Source: Pseudolabrys sp. FHR47 (GTDB lineage Bacteria; Pseudomonadota; Alphaproteobacteria; Rhizobiales; Xanthobacteraceae). Taken from it: a stretch of DNA of 64,000 bases. The stretch lies in assembly GCF_005153485.1 (NCBI RefSeq), contig NZ_CP039740.1, positions 1,305,001 through 1,369,000 on the forward strand, given 5' to 3'. Positions 48,906-57,179 of this stretch are shown one piece after another (the first letter of the stretch is position 1; every line of letters begins with the position of its first letter). A program made the translations under genes and the position numbers. Below the pieces are notes generated by a model. The model saw nothing but the letters and a program-made list of their open reading frames with translations. It did no database searches and was not told where the DNA came from.

Positions 48906-48994
48906 GCGGTTCGCGATAGCCTGCCCTTGTGTGTTGGGTGCCCGATGCTAAGCTTCCCCCAAATTCCGGTTCACGGAACAAAATGGGGGGAACC

Positions 48995-49960
48995 ATGGCA
49001 CGGCCTATCACGACGCTCGCGGCATTGTTCGCGGCCTGTGTATTCAGCGCGGCAACGGCGCAGGCCCAGGATTGCCCGCGCGGCGATCTCGACAAGATGT
49101 ATTGCGACAGCAATGGCGACATGGTGGCGGATACGCCGGCCGATCCAAAGCAGCGCGTGAACCCGTCCGTCCTGGTTTTCGCCTACACGCCGGTCGAAGA
49201 TCCCGCCGTTTACGGCAAGGTCTGGGATGGCTTCATCAAGCACATGGAGAAGCTGACCGGAAAGAAGGTCGTGTTCTTCCCCGTGCAGTCCAACGCCGCG
49301 GAGATCGAGGCGATGCGCTCGGGCCGGCTGCACGTCGCGGGGTTCAACACCGGCTCGAATCCGATCGCGGTCAATTGCGCGGGCTTCGTGCCGCTCGCCA
49401 TCATGGGTGGCAAGAACGGCGAGTTCGGCTACGAGATGGAGATCATCGTTCCCGCCGACAGCGCGATCAAGTCGCCGGCCGATCTCAAAGGCAAGAAGAT
49501 TGCTTTCACCGAGCCGACCTCCAATTCCGGCTTCAAGGCGCCATCGGCGATCCTGAAAGCCGATTTCAATCTGGAGAAGGACCGCGACTACACCGCCGTG
49601 TTCTCCGGCAAGCATGACAACTCGGTGATTGGCGTCGCCAACAAGGATTATGAAGCGGCCGCGATCGCCAACGAGGTGATGTTCCGCATGTTCGCCCGCA
49701 ACGTGGTCGACAAGGCGAAAATCCGGACGATTTACAAATCCGATACCTTCCCGACGACCGGCTACGGCGTCGCGCATAATCTCGATCCGGCACTGACCGA
49801 GAAGATCAAGGAGGCCTTCTTCACCTTCCCGTGGGAAGGCTCGGCGCTCAAGGCCGAGTTCAAGGGGCAGGACCGGTTCGTGCCGATCACCTACAAGAAG
49901 GACTGGAACGTCATTCGCAAGATCGATGCGGCGAATGGCGTGAAGTATTCCTGCAAGTAG
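48995..49960 (+). CDS. phnD: Phosphonate/phosphite ABC transporter substrate-binding protein
   Basis: 321 residues from ATG 48995, GGGGGGAA just upstream. Signal peptide [45 protein letters not shown] and [18 protein letters not shown], with the T-S-x-S-G binding-loop, mark the PhnD family. [17 protein letters not shown] is the C-terminal feature. First gene of phnD-phnC-phnE-phnE, with only 13 bp to phnC. No phn catabolic gene follows, so import of phosphonate, phosphite or phosphate is all that can be said. Confidence 0.92.
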
Positions 49961-49973
49961 CCTGGCCCAGGCC

Positions 49974-50828
49974 ATGCTGCGTATCCGCGGGCTGACGAAG
50001 CGCTACCGCACCGGCGATCTCGCGCTCGACCGCGTCGATCTCGACGTGGCGCAAGGCGAGGTCGTGGCGCTGATCGGGCCTTCGGGCGCCGGCAAGTCGA
50101 CGCTGATCCGCTGCATCAACCGGCTCGTCGAACCGACTGCCGGCACCATCGCGCTCAACGGCGTCGAGATCACCACCCTGGGCACGAGCGCGCTGCGGCG
50201 CGCCCGGCGCAAGCTCGGGATGATCTTCCAAGAATATGCTTTGGTCGAGCGGCTGTCGGTGATGGAGAACGTGCTGAGCGGCCGGCTCGGTTATGTCGGC
50301 TTCTGGCGCAGCTATATGCGGAAATTTCCGCAAGCCGACATCGACGAAGCCTTCCGGCTCTTGGCGCGGGTCGGTCTCGATCACATGGTCGACAAGCGCG
50401 CCGATGCGCTGTCCGGCGGCCAGCGCCAGCGCGTCGGCATTTGTCGCGCGCTGATCCAGAACCCCGACCTGCTGCTGGTCGATGAGCCGACCGCCTCGCT
50501 CGATCCGAAGACATCGCGGCAGATCATGCGGCTGATCACCGAACTGTGCCGCGAGCGCAATTTGTCGGCCATCGTCAATATTCACGACGTCCAGCTTGCG
50601 CAGATGTTCGCCACGCGCATCGTCGGCCTGCGGCAAGGCACGATCGTGTATGACGGCCCGCCCGACGGCCTGACGCCGGACGTATTGACCCGCATCTACG
50701 GCGAAGAGGACTGGTCGGCGACGACGAAGCGGTCGCCGGACGCGGACGATGAAGAGGAAGCGCCGGAGGCGTTCGGTGGGCTGGAGCCGGCACCGCTCGA
50801 CCGCGATCGCATGGCGGGGCTGAGGTGA
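49974..50828 (+). CDS. phnC: Phosphonate ABC transporter ATP-binding protein
   Basis: 284 residues. [20 protein letters not shown] at the N-terminus; Walker [10 protein letters not shown] (35-43), signature [15 protein letters not shown], Walker [32 protein letters not shown] is typical of PhnC. A C-terminal acidic extension ([12 protein letters not shown]) of ~35 residues is unusual for PhnC. It is followed by the first permease gene after 1 bp. Confidence 0.95.
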
Positions 50829-50829
50829 G

Positions 50830-51645
50830 ATGAGCATCGCCAGTTCAGCGCCTGCCGTTAAGCGGGTCTGGCGCAAGCCGCCGCTGATCAAGAGCGCGGC
50901 ATTGCGCTGGGGCATTGGCGTCGCCGCGGCGCTCTACCTCGCCGCAGCCCTCGGCACCACCGAGATCAACTGGGCGCGCGTCTGGGAAGGGCTGCCACGC
51001 GGCGCACGCTTCTTCGCCTCGTTCTTTCCGCCGGATTTCACCACCCGCTCGTCCGAGATATTCGACGGCATTCTGGAAAGCATCTGGATGACTCTGGTCG
51101 CCACGGCGATCGGCATCGTGCTATCGATTCCCATCGGGCTTGGCGCGGCCAAGAACATTGCGCCGGCGCCGGTCTATTATGTCTGCCGCGGCTTTCTTGC
51201 TGTCTCGCGCAGCTTCCAGGAGATCATCCTCGCGATCTTCTTCGTCAAACTGTTCGGCTTCGGTCCGTTCGCCGGAGTCGTGACGCTCGCCTTCGCCACC
51301 ATCGGCTTCTACGGCAAGCTGCTCGCCGAGGACATTGAGGACATGGACCCCAGCCAGGCGGAAGCCGTGCGCGCAACCGGCGCGAGCTGGCTGCAATGGG
51401 TCAATTTCGGCATTCAGCCGCAGGTGTTGCCGCGTATGCTGGGCCTTGCCCTCTACCGCGTCGACATCAATTTCCGCGAGTCGGCGGTGGTCGGCATTGT
51501 CGGCGCCGGCGGCATCGGCGCCACGCTCGACACCGCCTTCAACCGCTACGAATTCGATTCAGCCGCCGCCATCCTGCTGGTCATCATCGGCATCGTGATG
51601 CTGATGGAGTACCTCTCCGGCTACGTCCGGCGCTGGGTGCAGTGA
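50830..51645 (+). CDS. phnE: Phosphonate ABC transporter permease, first copy
   Basis: 271 residues. Six or so hydrophobic helices; the ABC permease EAA-like loop is EAVRATGASWLQWVNFGIQPQVLP, and RVDINFRESAVVGIVGAGGIG is a PhnE signature. The stop codon is followed immediately by a second phnE (ATG at 51645). Confidence 0.94.
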   Translation: MSIASSAPAVKRVWRKPPLIKSAALRWGIGVAAALYLAAALGTTEINWARVWEGLPRGARFFASFFPPDFTTRSSEIFDGILESIWMTLVATAIGIVLSIPIGLGAAKNIAPAPVYYVCRGFLAVSRSFQEIILAIFFVKLFGFGPFAGVVTLAFATIGFYGKLLAEDIEDMDPSQAEAVRATGASWLQWVNFGIQPQVLPRMLGLALYRVDINFRESAVVGIVGAGGIGATLDTAFNRYEFDSAAAILLVIIGIVMLMEYLSGYVRRWVQ

Positions 51646-52460
51646 TGGCGGTCTCGGTCCGGCAAGGTACGAAAATCTGGCAGCGCCGCGAGCGCGCCGT
51701 GCAGTTTTCGATCTGGGCCGCGTGGTTCGTCGCTGCCGTCGTCCTCGTCGTAAGCTGGAGCTTCATCAGCGAGAAGACGATCTGGCCCTTCGTGCTCGAC
51801 GCGCCGCAACAGGCCGCCGATCTCGGCGTCCGCATGGTGCCGCCCGACTGGGGATTTATCGGCGCGCTGTGGCGGCCGATGTGGGACACGATCAACATGG
51901 CGACGCTCGGCACGCTGATGGGCATCGCGATCGCTGTGCCGGTTGCATACTGCGCGGCGCGCAACACCACGCCGAGCGTCGCTGTGCTGCGGCCGCTCGC
52001 GCTGTTCGTGATCGTGTCGTCGCGCTCGATCAATTCTCTGATCTGGGCGCTGATGCTGGTCACGATCATCGGCCCCGGCGTGTTCGCCGGCATCTTGGCG
52101 ATCGGGTTTCGCTCGATCGGCTTCTGCGCGAAGCTGTTGTACGAGGCGATCGAGGAGATCGATGAGTCCCAGGTCGAGGCGGTGCGCGCGACAGGGGCGA
52201 GTTCGGCGCAGGTGACGTCTTACGGAGTCGTGCCGCAGGTCATGCCGGCCTTCGCCGGCATTTCCGTGTTCCGCTGGGACATCAACATCCGCGAATCGAC
52301 GGTGCTTGGGCTGGTCGGGGCGGGCGGCATCGGCCTGCCGCTGAACTCGGCGATCACGACATTGGCCTGGACCAAGGTGTCGCTGATCCTGCTGGTGATC
52401 ATCGCCAGCGTCGTTCTCAGCGAATGGATCTCGGCCAAGGTGCGCCAGGCGATTATCTGA
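51645..52460 (+). CDS. phnE: Phosphonate ABC transporter permease, second copy
   Basis: 271 residues from ATG 51645, which overlaps the first phnE stop by one base. EAVRATGASSAQVTSYGVVPQVMPAF and RWDINIRESTVLGLVGAGGIG parallel the first copy; the two probably form a heterodimeric channel. The stop lies 12 bp before the stop codon of the orphan hisG tail on the opposite strand. Confidence 0.94.
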   Translation: MAVSVRQGTKIWQRRERAVQFSIWAAWFVAAVVLVVSWSFISEKTIWPFVLDAPQQAADLGVRMVPPDWGFIGALWRPMWDTINMATLGTLMGIAIAVPVAYCAARNTTPSVAVLRPLALFVIVSSRSINSLIWALMLVTIIGPGVFAGILAIGFRSIGFCAKLLYEAIEEIDESQVEAVRATGASSAQVTSYGVVPQVMPAFAGISVFRWDINIRESTVLGLVGAGGIGLPLNSAITTLAWTKVSLILLVIIASVVLSEWISAKVRQAII

Positions 52461-52472
52461 CGCGGCGAGCTG

Positions 52473-52632
52473 CTACAAAGCCGCTTCCAGCTTGGCGTAC
52501 AGCGGGTTCTCTTTCGAAAACACGTAATCGAGGTCGGCCACCGCGACCGCTTCGGCGCCGCGTTCGCGCAGGAAGGCCGTCAGCGCATAGACCTCGCCCG
52601 GCGGGCAGTGCAGCGTCAGCATGCCCGAGGAG
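52473..52632 (-). pseudogene. hisG: Orphan duplicate of the hisG 3' end
   Basis: These 160 bp align without gaps to 53857-54016, the last 160 bp of intact hisG, with 16 mismatches (90%). Both start exactly at the TAG stop. Read in frame, the tail encodes [16 protein letters not shown] through [12 protein letters not shown]; only one residue differs in the shared 48 (Y for F). Homology ends at SSGM; beyond it the sequence is unrelated. There is no start codon of its own for HisG. The pattern fits a displaced gene end, not an independent gene. Confidence 0.9.
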
Positions 52633-52708
52633 CCACGTCCGGAGGGGGGCAAAGGCAGAAATCTGGGGACGACTCCCGCCATACCAGCCGACGGTCAGAC
52701 CGACTTAG

Positions 52709-53686
52709 TCAGAGGGTGACCTTCGATCGAACGACGCGAATAGTAGGGTAGCCGTGCTTTTTGAGGAAAAGTCGGGCTTTCACTTCGGCGTCTTTGGGGG
52801 CGAGCGGCCCGATCAGAATTTCCTTGATGTTGCCGCGCTCTTTAAGAGGTAAATCCGCCTCGACATAATGCTTGATGCGGTCGCCGATTTTTAATTGCTT
52901 ACGGATGTCGTCGAATTTGCCCGGCAGGTTCATGATGACATAGCGAACCTCGCGCTCGTTTGCGTACTTGATATCCTTCGCGGTCAGGCAATTCCAGACA
53001 AGTTGCGAAGCGATAAATTCCGTCTCTATGGCGTGGATGAATTGCAGTAAAACTTCCTTGTCTCTTGGCATCTTGATGTGCGCCTTGCCGTAGCGGCTGA
53101 CGACTTCGGCGGCCTTTTCAATCCCGCACCTGTGCCGCGCACGCGTGGCAGGTTCACCATAGATCACGCGACCGACATGCAGGTTCTCGCTCGCCTTATC
53201 GCTCAGTGTGTCTTTGTCGGGTTGAAACAGCGGCGGTGCGAAGCCGATAGCGAAACCGCGTCCTGCGTCTCCGTATTCCAACCATTGTTGATGATCGTCG
53301 CGGTGCTTGCTGAGGCTGAACAAGTAGAATTCGAAGGTATCGACCAACGAATTCGCTTCGAGCATGTCGTCTAGACCGCAGCAAATAGAGCGTTGGAAAG
53401 GATTTTTCGACCAGCCGACCGACCTCATCTCCTCGCGAGCAATCTGGAGCGAATATTCGAACTCGGTTTCGTCCCGCTGATGCAAATGGCGAAAGCACCA
53501 AATCTGTTGCTTCTTCAAAATGCTACGGAACGGGACACCACTCGTATAATGATAGAGCGCATCGACGGGCGTGGTCGCATTCTGCTCTTTGAGCAATTGC
53601 TTTTGTGACCAATTGACGAACCCAGACACTGCGGCGCGGGCTTTGCGCGGCAAATGGTCGTATCGCGTATTGTAGGGGTCGGTCAT
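52709..53686 (-). CDS. DUF2971 family protein in an accessory insertion
   Basis: 325 residues from ATG 53686 (a TTG at 53737 is an alternative). DUF2971 features: ALYHYTSGVPFRSILKKQQIW, FEYSLQIAREEM, YLFSLSKHRDDHQQWLEYG, GRGFAIGF and KYANEREVRYV. The family is common in accessory DNA; I know of no established biochemical activity. Three 60-base stretches I counted (from 53041, 53281 and 53461) are 47-50% GC, against 78% in a hisG stretch at 54121. Two direct repeats GCTAAGGGTC (53766 and 53811) lie upstream. Horizontal origin is likely. Confidence 0.85.
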   Translation of the reverse strand: MTDPYNTRYDHLPRKARAAVSGFVNWSQKQLLKEQNATTPVDALYHYTSGVPFRSILKKQQIWCFRHLHQRDETEFEYSLQIAREEMRSVGWSKNPFQRSICCGLDDMLEANSLVDTFEFYLFSLSKHRDDHQQWLEYGDAGRGFAIGFAPPLFQPDKDTLSDKASENLHVGRVIYGEPATRARHRCGIEKAAEVVSRYGKAHIKMPRDKEVLLQFIHAIETEFIASQLVWNCLTAKDIKYANEREVRYVIMNLPGKFDDIRKQLKIGDRIKHYVEADLPLKERGNIKEILIGPLAPKDAEVKARLFLKKHGYPTIRVVRSKVTL

Positions 53687-53856
53687 CAGGTTTGGAGCCA
53701 ATGCTCCATTGAGCAACGGGCTGAGCGATCGGGTCAAGGCCTAAAATGAATGGTCCGGCAGGTCCGCTAAGGGTCGGCGCTGATCTAAAAGACCCTGCTC
53801 GATCACGTCGGCTAAGGGTCACTAAGTGACATGGCAGTCGGCTGTGCGCAACCGCC

Positions 53857-54828
53857 CTACAACGCCGCTTCCAGCTTCGCGAACAGCGGGTTCTCCTTCG
53901 AGAACACGTAATCGAGGTCGGCCACCGCGACGGCTTCCGCGCCGCGCTCGCGCAGGAACGCGGTGAGGGCGTAGACCTCGCCCGGCGGGCAATGCAGCGT
54001 CAGCATGCCGGACGAGGTCGGCCCGCCGAACGGCGTTGCCACGCCGAATTTCGTTTTGGCGTCTTCGACCAGTTTGGCGTCGCAGGCGGCAAAGCGCGAG
54101 CGCACCTCGCGATAGGCGCGGGCGCGCGCCTGCGCGGCGATGCGGTCGAGGATGACGCGCGCGGTCTCGCGCGTGCCGTTCTCCCAGTTCGCGGTGCGCG
54201 CGGCGACGAGATTGGCCTGCGAACGCAGCATGACGCCGTCGTCGACGATCTTCAGCGCATTGGCGGCGAGCGTCGTGCCGGTGGTGGTGATGTCGACGAT
54301 GAGTTCGGCGGTGCCGGCGGCCGGTGCGCCTTCGGTCGCGCCCGCGCTCTCGACGATGCGATAGTCGATGATGCCATGCGCCGAGAAGAACTCGCGCGTC
54401 AGGTTGATGTATTTGGTCGCGACCCGCATCTTGCGGCCGTGATGCTGACGGAAGCCGGTGGCGACGTCGTCGATGTCGGCCATGGTGCGCACGTCGATCC
54501 AGGCCTGCGGCACTGCGACCACGACATTGGCGAAACCGAAGCCGAGCGGCTCGATGAGCACGACCTTGTCGTCGGCATCGGCGATCTGCTCGCGGATCAG
54601 ATCCTCGCCGGTCACGCCCATGTGGACGGCGCCGGCGGCGAGCTGTGCCGTGATCTCGCTCGCCGAGAGATAGGCGACCTCGACGCCGTCGAGCCCGGCG
54701 ACGGCGCCGCGATAGTCGCGGGCGCCGCGCGGCTTGACGAGTTGCAGGCCGGAGCGCGCGAAGAAGGCTTCGGCGTTTTCCTGCAGGCGGCCCTTGGCGG
54801 GCACGGCGAGAACCAGCGGCGCGCTCAT
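53857..54828 (-). CDS. hisG: ATP phosphoribosyltransferase (histidine biosynthesis step 1)
   Basis: 323 residues from ATG 54828; GGAGG lies 6 nt upstream, and the ATGA overlaps the hisZ stop. [34 protein letters not shown] and [23 protein letters not shown] (PRPP loop) are canonical. At 323 residues it exceeds the ~210-230 of the short HisG form that needs HisZ. It includes a C-terminal domain of which the last 53 residues ([10 protein letters not shown]...KLEAAL) are the duplicated part. Its final 160 bp may be foreign. Confidence 0.96.
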
Positions 54829-55988
54829 GCAGCGCCTCCATAGACGGCGAGGCGTTCGATCCACACTGCAAAGCCAATCGCCGGGATCGGTTCGGCGGCG
54901 CCGAGTCGTGTCAGCAGGCCGTCATAGCGCCCGCCCGAGACCAGCGGATCGCCGGTGCGCGAGGGGTCGGTGAGCTCGAAGACGAAGCCAGTGTAGTAGT
55001 CGAAGCCGCGGCCGAAGGCGGTCGAGAAATGCACGCGCTTCAAGTCGATGTCGCGCGCGGCGAGGAAGCCGTTGCGGCTCTCCAAAAGGTCGAGAGCGGG
55101 CGCGAGTTCAGTCGCGAGATTGGCGTCGGCCGCGAGCGCGCGCAGTTCCGCGGCGGCCTCGTCCGGGTCGCCGGCGATGGCGAGGAAGCGCTCGATCAGC
55201 CCGCGGATGTCGCGCGGCAGTTTGGTCGAGGCGCCCAGCGCCGATTGCTCGAGGAAGCGATCGGCGATCTCAGCGACCGAGCGGCCGCCGACGGCGGAGA
55301 TGCCGGCGATGGAGAGGAGGTCGGTGACCAGCGCGTGCGCGCCTTTCGGATCGGAGCCGGCGAGCGCGGCGAGCACGCCCTGATATTCCGGGCGGCCGTT
55401 CGTGCCGCCCAGCGCCAGACGATCGAGGTCCTGGGCGAGGTTGGCCTTGCGGTTGAAGTCCTTGACCAGGCGCCGCTTCCACGCCGGAGCGAGGTCGAGC
55501 GCGGCGACCAGCGCCGCGAACAGCGCGACGTCGCCCGTCTTCATGTCGGGGGCAGGCAAGCCGTAGCTCGCGGTGGTCTCGAGCCCCAGAGCGAGCATCT
55601 CCGCATCGGAGGCCGCCGTGTCGGTACGGCCGAAACTCTCGACGCCGCCTTGCTGGAATTCGGCGTTGCCTTCGGCGCGGTGGCGGAAGACGGGTCCGAG
55701 GTAGCAGTAGCTCGCCGGCTTGCCCGCGAGCGGCGAGGCGAGATAGTCGCGCGACACCGGAATGGTGAGGTCCGGCCGCAGGCACAATTCCGCGCCGCCG
55801 GGCGCCGTGGTGAGGAACATGCGGCGGCGAATATCCTCGCCGGACAGGTCGAGGAAGGGCTCGGCCGGCTGCAGGATCGGCGGCGACACGCGCGCATAGC
55901 CGGCGCGCTCATAGGAGGCGAGCAGCGCTTCCGCGCGCGCATCCAAAATGCCCAAAAGTGCCGCCGATTGTGCAGCCGTCCCGTCCAT
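54825..55988 (-). CDS. hisZ: ATP phosphoribosyltransferase regulatory subunit HisZ
   Basis: 387 residues, a HisRS paralogue that lacks tRNA-synthetase activity. It keeps [37 protein letters not shown] and [11 protein letters not shown], and [20 protein letters not shown]; the anticodon domain is absent. It overlaps hisG by 4 bases. In other organisms HisZ activates short-form HisG; here HisG looks longer, which is noted as unusual. Confidence 0.95.
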
Positions 55989-56229: not shown

Positions 56230-56694
56230 ATGACCGAGGCGGTGACCGAAGAAATGGTGGACGCCTTCTATGAGGCGTTCCTCAACGCGGATTGCGAACG
56301 GCTCGCCGGGATGATCCACGACGACGTGGTGTGGTCCACGAGGGGGCCGGTTGCCGTGCTGCGCTTTTGCGGCGAGCGCCGCGGCAAGGCCGCTATCCTC
56401 GAACTGAGCCGGAAAACGCTTCCTGAGGTCTTCAGCCGCATCCATCTCAAGCGGGAGTCGCTAGTCATCGACGGCGACCGCGCCGCGGTGCTGAACTTGC
56501 AGACGGCACAGCGCCGCAAGGATGGACGCACCACCACTTACCGCTATGCGCACTTTTTCCGTTTCAAGGACGGCAAGATCATCGAAACCACGGCGATCAT
56601 CGACAGTTTCAACGCCGCGGAACAGATGCTGGGCCAGGTTCTGCAAGTCCCGGAACGCGAGCCTGCCGAAGCCGGAATGATGGTGGTTCTATGA
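56230..56694 (+). CDS. NTF2/SnoaL-like protein, first of a tandem pair
   Basis: 154 residues. EEMVDAFYEAFLNADCERLAGMIHDDVVWSTRGP and YRYAHFFRFKDGKIIETTAIIDSFNAAEQMLG are the cone-shaped NTF2-like fold pattern. AGGAGG lies ~11 nt upstream of the ATG. Its stop overlaps the start of the next paralogue (ATGA), so the two are translationally coupled. No ligand or reaction can be assigned. Confidence 0.87.
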   Translation: MTEAVTEEMVDAFYEAFLNADCERLAGMIHDDVVWSTRGPVAVLRFCGERRGKAAILELSRKTLPEVFSRIHLKRESLVIDGDRAAVLNLQTAQRRKDGRTTTYRYAHFFRFKDGKIIETTAIIDSFNAAEQMLGQVLQVPEREPAEAGMMVVL

Positions 56695-57179
56695 CAGTGG
56701 CCGTCGAGCGCCCGTCCGATCCGGTCGTCGACCGTTCTTATGTCGAGGCCTATTTCGACGCCTTCGCGGCACGCGACACCAAGGCTTTCGCCGCCTTCCT
56801 GCATGATGACGTCTGCTGGACGATCAGCGGGCCGATCGACCTCATTCCGTATTGCGGCGTCTATCGTGGCAAGGCGGCCGTCCTCGACGTCATGGAGCGC
56901 CGGGCGCGCAACGTCCTCAGCGTCGTCCGGATCAGCCGCGAGAATTTCCTGGTGCAGGGCAACCGCGGCGCGGCGCTGACGCGGCTGACCGCCTGTCTTG
57001 CCAACGATGGCCGCACGGTGAGCTACCGGGTCGCCAATTTTTTCCGATTCGAAGACGGCAAGCTCATCGAGAACATGTCGCTGATGGACAGTTTCGATGC
57101 CGCCGAGCAAATGCTCGGCCATGCCATCGACGTCGGCGACGCGCCGCCGCTGGCCGACGACAATATCTTCGTCCTTTAG
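56691..57179 (+). CDS. NTF2/SnoaL-like protein, second of a tandem pair
   Basis: 162 residues, paralogue of the preceding gene: SYVEAYFDAFAARDTKAFAAFLHDDVCWTISGP and YRVANFFRFEDGKLIENMSLMDSFDAAEQMLG match it position for position. Both end in a short tail with hydrophobic terminus (NIFVL / MMVVL). Coupled paralogues may form a heterodimer. Function unknown. Confidence 0.87.
   Translation: MTVAVERPSDPVVDRSYVEAYFDAFAARDTKAFAAFLHDDVCWTISGPIDLIPYCGVYRGKAAVLDVMERRARNVLSVVRISRENFLVQGNRGAALTRLTACLANDGRTVSYRVANFFRFEDGKLIENMSLMDSFDAAEQMLGHAIDVGDAPPLADDNIFVL

Follow-up and report, generated by a model that had tools for sequence, protein, structure and literature searches.

The two copies of the hisG 3' end that flank a DUF2971 gene in the window, by which we mean the whole 64,000-nucleotide stretch of DNA analysed, are probably what a one-sided (homology-facilitated illegitimate) recombination left behind in a hotspot that starts at the hisG stop codon. 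The event is recent, and it is an unusually readable case of a known kind of gene gain, one rarely seen so plainly. The host, a soil-type bacterium, falls with Pseudolabrys, the genus named on many of its best HisG matches in named genomes and represented by 43 genomes in our collection.

Self-comparison of the window showed that the last 160 bp of hisG are present twice, with 90% identity and no gaps, once at the end of the intact gene and once as an orphan beside phnE (Table 1). The original prediction had described this duplication, with its 16 mismatches and its single Tyr/Phe replacement, and the gapless alignment confirmed the description. Fifteen of the mismatches fall at codon position 3 and the remaining one, responsible for Tyr/Phe, at position 2; the 52-residue peptides encoded by the two tails are otherwise identical. 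If changes were spread evenly over codon positions, at least 15 third-position mismatches out of 16 would arise with P = 7.7e-7. The Tyr of the orphan is also found in G026, G009, G029, G022 and G027, and comparison of both tails with those of relatives left no replacement change attributable to the orphan. The window tails differ by 10%, and the hisG tails of the compared species differ from one another by 7-16%. The concentration of differences at third positions, together with the lack of replacement changes in the orphan, indicates that the orphan belonged to a working gene until recently, which backs the earlier claim that the tails diverged as working genes. The intact gene lies beside hisZ and encodes a HisG of 323 aa, of which TIGR00070 and PF01634 cover approximately the first two thirds, the rest matching no other reported family.

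Table 1. Features around the duplicated hisG end, with positions in the window
Feature	Position	Strand	Basis
phnE, closing gene of phnD-C-E-E (operon at 48992-52460) and convergent with hisG	51645..52460	+	Profile matches; adjacent to hisG in four genomes (window, G026, G028, G009)
Orphan 3' tail of hisG, reading in frame up to its stop codon, with the phnE stop 12 bp away	52473..52632	-	Colinear with hisG end and phnE of G026 and G028
Joint between orphan tail and DUF2971 side (putative illegitimate joint)	52632..52633	.	End of the orphan's hisG homology
Spacer of 76 bp, from the joint to the DUF2971 stop	52633..52708	.	blastn: self only in 30 loci; none in the G033, G032, G009 and G026 stretches
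DUF2971 gene (ATG at 53686, protein of 325 aa); frame open as far as 53737	52709..53686	-	PF11185; closest homologues
Spacer from DUF2971 start to hisG stop; imperfect 17-bp repeat with copies at 53759 and 53804	53687..53856	.	Self-comparison
3' tail of intact hisG, a diverged copy of the orphan	53857..54016	-	Self-comparison and alignment
Intact hisG, start ATG placed at 54828 from the sequence	53857..54828	-	TIGR00070 over cut-off
hisZ (ATP phosphoribosyltransferase regulatory subunit), over which the homologous arm may have extended	54825..55988	-	NF008953 over cut-off

The one recognised coding frame between the tails matches PF11185 (DUF2971) with E 1.1e-6, and its closest homologues, mostly 320-330 aa long, favour the start given in Table 1 over the one at 53737. 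It had been described as a gene of about 50% GC in a chromosome above 65%; the low GC content holds, but the exact figures are 53.2% for the gene and 64.2% for the whole window. No other part of the window is as poor in GC, since only 0.16% of 978-bp segments taken in 50-bp steps are as low and all of them overlap the DUF2971 gene itself. The best homologue in the protein database, P0001, is 90% identical over 95% and is a sequence record without genomic context. Within the genus, where several of the 43 genomes are incomplete, DUF2971 was found in the host and, weakly, in G034 (33% identity, E 1.5e-8), and a match was therefore absent from 41 of the other 42 genomes. Nine of 296 family genomes gave a match, the best besides the host being G299 with 31%, and at E 1e-25 the host was the only one of 397 order genomes to do so. 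These family, genus and order searches returned no donor carrying hisG followed by DUF2971. A plasmid search retrieved two Vibrio records at 22%, and the insert gave no blastn match in the compared stretches of G033, G032, G009 and G026. Two further roles considered for the non-coding parts were discarded: the spacer at 53738-53860 is single-copy in the host genome and thus not a dispersed repeat, and a terminator or promoter role received 3 terminator-like sites against 2.5 in shuffled sequences and 1 promoter-like site against 0.4. The protein from the longer frame (52709-53737) matches weakly the PADLOC candidate defence models PDC-S31 (E 2.4e-5, residues 137-168).

Relatives with an empty site do exist. 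In G026 and G028 phnE lies directly against hisG, and in G026 their stop codons are 12 bp apart, the same distance that separates the phnE and orphan stops in the window and that the original prediction had reported. Colinearity with G026 and G028 extends from the orphan tail through the phn operon into the gene that follows it (window 52632 to approximately 47610, 87%). The empty sites, together with the lack of DUF2971 in nearly all other genomes of the genus, support its gain as an insertion by horizontal transfer. A phn match is present in 19 of the 43 genus genomes, four times beside hisG (window, G026, G028 and G009) and 15 times on another contig than hisG; the hisG-adjacent phnD-C-E-E arrangement thus belongs to 4 genomes of a seven-genome clade, and a phn match is absent in G029, G032 and G033. 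The window operon is 88.3-88.8% identical to the three other hisG-side copies, compared with 90.0-90.7% among those three. Its PhnD protein scores below the PhnD equivalog cut-off and above that of a wider binding-protein subfamily.

We then compared both tails and their surroundings with the relatives. In most segments of a distant part of the window, G032 and G033 are closest at the DNA level, followed by G028, G026, G009 and G029. The hisG body groups with G032 (98/96 support) and hisZ agrees weakly, with 84.6-84.8% identity to G032 and G033 versus 82.2-84.1% to the three others compared. The homology is long on this side of the insert, where five relatives share 89-93% identity with the window in the hisG body and 82-85% in hisZ. 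The intact tail is 93.1% identical to that of G033, 91.2% to G028 and 90.0% to both G032 and the orphan, and the orphan is 89.4% identical to G033 and G026 and 88.1% to G032. Two sites are fixed between the pair G032 and G033 and the group of G028, G026, G009 and G029, and at both the intact tail carries the state of the pair and the orphan that of the group. At sites 51, 84 and 138 the orphan also has derived states in common with this group (G028 excepted at 84), but these conflict with sites 3, 45 and 69, where its derived states are those of G032 (and also of G026 at 45 and of G029 at 69). Approximately unbiased (AU) tests on the 160 bp rejected none of seven placements, giving p 0.325 to the tails as sisters and the lowest p, 0.087, to the intact tail with G026, G009 and G029; in the best tree the two tails are not sisters, but at a length of 160 bp the tree test is not decisive. 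The fixed sites favour the proposal that the tails come from different lineages, the derived sites conflict, and the AU tests reject no placement. The adjacency of the orphan to phnE and its colinearity with G026 and G028 fit the proposal that it is the original gene end, but either tail may be the native one. The codon-position pattern is a stronger argument than the tail trees, given that a free copy so diverged should carry replacement changes.

Sliding identity along hisG revealed no clear upstream crossover within the gene. The flanks are mosaic: hisZ, the hisG body and the intact tail together have 18 fixed sites like G032 and G033 and 6 like G028, G026, G009 and G029, versus 20 and 44, respectively, in the SnoaL pair beyond hisZ (Fisher p 0.0003, with sites treated as independent), although the SnoaL alignment is just 67-71% identical and may therefore mix paralogues. 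In the gene beyond phnD the fixed sites split 8 to 9. The SnoaL pair consists of two tandem SnoaL-like genes at 56230-57179, the second named from its 41% match to the first.

We propose that the donor DNA was a linear piece from a sister lineage within Pseudolabrys, on which hisG, or at least its end, preceded DUF2971. This piece would have paired by homology with hisG and hisZ of the recipient, and its non-homologous end would have been joined into the recipient hisG around 160 bp before the stop codon. The old tail of the recipient, next to phnE, would then have been left behind as the orphan. Such an event would leave hisG whole, and the hisG 3' end would accordingly be a tolerant place for joints of this kind. 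The structure calls for a joint between two haplotypes within hisG that leaves the gene whole, and a single one-sided event suffices to produce it without a recombinase. The fragment may have been delivered by a gene transfer agent (GTA) or by natural transformation. The host genome contains a GTA-like row of genes (L190, G000:C1:3270500-3288500) comprising terminase, HK97-type capsid, connector, tail tube, DUF2460, BR0599, NlpC/P60 and GTA_TIM, in the usual GTA order. GTA particles hold approximately 4 kb, and the RcGTA-like cluster of the host is a possible carrier of linear DNA. GTA_TIM is present in 20 of the 43 genus genomes, and this search did not find it in G329, G009 or G032.

The same mechanism is also conceivable with the roles swapped, a reading that we consider unlikely. 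hisG, DUF2971 and the Cys/Met gene would then be native, and the phn operon would have been imported with the last 160 bp of a relative's hisG, anchored in the downstream gene and joined by its hisG end beside DUF2971, which would make the orphan a passenger of the operon. Such an import would fit the proximity of the host to G032 and G033 in most segments of that distant part of the window, as neither has a phn match, and also the colinearity of orphan and operon with G026 and G028 and the derived states at sites 51, 84 and 138, which the orphan shares with phn-bearing relatives. However, the window operon lies outside the other hisG-side copies, as vertical descent would give, the orphan shares its three other derived sites with G032, and a separate, earlier gain of DUF2971 would be required.

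A hotspot of gene gain starts at the hisG stop codon. We compared 23 genomes at this place, namely that of the window, 20 genus genomes with long contigs around hisG, G329 and G071. hisZ adjoins hisG in all 23, GtrA is reached in 19, and GT2 lies within approximately 0.2 kb of GtrA in every one of these 19, among which the distance from hisG to GtrA ranges from 8 bp (G025) to 6.9 kb (G026). The cargo varies, with an outer-membrane barrel protein in G032, an FAD enzyme plus an ArsR-type regulator in G033, MFS transporters, TctC receptors, a hybrid sensor kinase, an L,D-transpeptidase in G329, and a DUF4118 kinase plus response regulator, which we read as KdpDE-like, in G071. The FAD-ArsR module recurs as 89% identical DNA in G009, its two copies lying 1225-3055 bp (L169) and 12-1844 bp (L167) past the hisG stop, and only in G009 does phn follow beyond it. 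Relatives with other cargo at the hisG end, G009, G032 and G033 among them, were thus found as anticipated. Of 44 open frames listed, 28 proteins from 13 loci were scanned, leaving out 16 frames: those of approximately 400 aa adjoining GtrA, the FAD and ArsR genes as they occur in G009, two from G018 and small ones. No integrase or transposase was detected among the 28, so that no relative retaining an integrase came to light in these loci; nine of these proteins have no Pfam match, and for this reason a novel recombinase remains conceivable. A literature search retrieved no report joining hisG as an integration site with an integrase or a genomic island.

Orphan hisG tails are rare. Among 391 family genomes, 374 have a match to the tail at E 1e-6 and five have two matches, but orphans were established in three only (window, G329 and G071). 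The 397 order genomes, which overlap with the family set, gave 153 matches at E 1e-4, with two matches in the host genome only. G060 and G393 were rejected as orphan cases because both of their matches sit in frames of at least 343 aa, that is, in second hisG-like genes. These second genes lie on other contigs (G060:C38:28820-28975, G060:C128:27204-27359 and G393:C78:1571-1687) and may represent a paralogue or contamination. Weak hisG-like matches past hisG were also set aside: a self-comparison of 98 further loci, which includes some genomes twice, gave 39 at E 0.05 on the real strand against 44 in the reverse-complement control, and a protein search of these 98 loci gave none in either.

In G329 the L,D-transpeptidase gene lies between two tails. 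Counted from ATGCTGACG, these agree over 128 bp, and the final 22 positions then include 6 differences, each of them synonymous or a TAG/TGA change of stop codon. This pattern of identity followed by differences near the end is what would be expected if a homologous crossover fell near the stop. G071 has three orphan tails of approximately 96 bp (95.8, 94.8 and 90.4% identical), which lie around the kinase and regulator genes and next to a palindromic repeat, and this case looks more like local copying. Its locus (G071:C66, L160:10000-13350) contains tandem units that combine a hisG end of approximately 96 bp with a REP- or MITE-like palindromic repeat of approximately 110 bp (TAGGGCGCAATAAGC ... 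GCGCCCTACG), and a RelE-like gene lies beyond. Measured from the stop, the orphans start at 150-160 bp in the window, at 150 bp in G329 and at approximately 96 bp in G071. By our rough estimate, the coincidence of the first two within approximately 10 bp has a chance of 2% for one pair and of 6% for any pair of the three.

These joints bear on the integrating element that the original prediction had invoked. The hisG 3' end would in this case be an attachment site, and a small element carrying a replacement tail would have entered through a recombinase that acted in trans or was later lost. An intact gene with a displaced tail is the anatomy expected of such an integration, and the near-coincidence of the window and G329 joints, in the same codons, keeps the idea alive at low probability. 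We nevertheless judge it highly improbable: the 28 scanned proteins include no known integrase or transposase (with nine lacking a Pfam family), and the G071 orphans begin elsewhere and adjoin a palindromic repeat, leaving no common att core, while the 128 bp of identity followed by six differences in G329 is unlike a short core. Searches of limited reach found the hisG tail in none of 151 pattern-matched viral stretches and in a single plasmid match, 40% identical, on a 2.8-Mb Methylobacterium record. The integrating element is thus not supported, and of the broader idea that hisG is a landing site for accessory cargo, the varied cargo and the two further genomes with orphan tails stand, but not the integrase or a common joint. 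To the related reading that the hisG 3' end is, across the family, a sequence-specific landing site for a recombinase in trans or a break-prone sequence we give very little credence; it would take the window and G329 as two independent insertions at the SSGMLTLHC codons that captured unrelated single genes. Least credible of all is that the hisG end was duplicated locally in tandem, with subsequent decay and insertion, since, even if the AU test leaves the tails free to be sisters and the G071 repeats look like local tandem copies, a free copy should have changed at codon positions 1 and 2 over 10% of divergence and the intact tail is nearer to G033 and G028 than to the orphan.

One-sided recombination is favoured by the empty sites, the working-gene divergence of the tails, the mosaic flanks, the varied cargo without a known integrase or transposase, the G329 pattern and the RcGTA-like cluster. 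Against it count the missing donor, the lack of a visible crossover in hisG, the conflicting derived sites, AU tests that reject nothing and the near-coincident joint of G329. The entry of single cargo segments into hotspots has so far been mostly inferred, and a duplicated gene end with synonymous divergence pinpoints a single event and marks it as recent. Synonymously diverged tails could be sought at other core genes beside hotspots and, if frequent, would provide a direct measure of natural one-sided recombination and of the share that gene transfer agents have in it.

The window resembles integrative islands that occupy gene 3' ends and carry a replacement gene end in its intact gene, its cargo and its displaced old tail, but differs in that an integrase was not found and the three cases have no common joint. 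According to a study of 80 species, hotspots without element genes, with recombination at flanking core genes, are common (PMC5635113). The hisG locus is like them in that accessory cargo varies between conserved genes and often lacks genes of mobile elements, but the one-sided joint left a duplicated gene end here in place of a clean two-sided replacement. Homology-facilitated illegitimate recombination has been reported in three competent species and, at low frequency, in E. coli conjugation (PMC3240628), and a one-sided model has also been proposed for small variable segments (PMC2884548), which share with our insert the kilobase scale and the lack of element genes, but not the duplicated gene end that records the joint. 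The orphan immunity arrays of the Vibrio cholerae T6SS offer a further parallel, as their growth by this same type of recombination has been proposed (PMC5361080); the model for them, like ours, combines a homologous anchor on one side with an illegitimate joint opposite and with older material displaced downstream and kept, and there is no evidence of an integrase. The piece kept in those arrays is a useful immunity gene, whereas in the window a housekeeping biosynthetic gene has left 160 bp behind, and cargo and anchor gene are unrelated.
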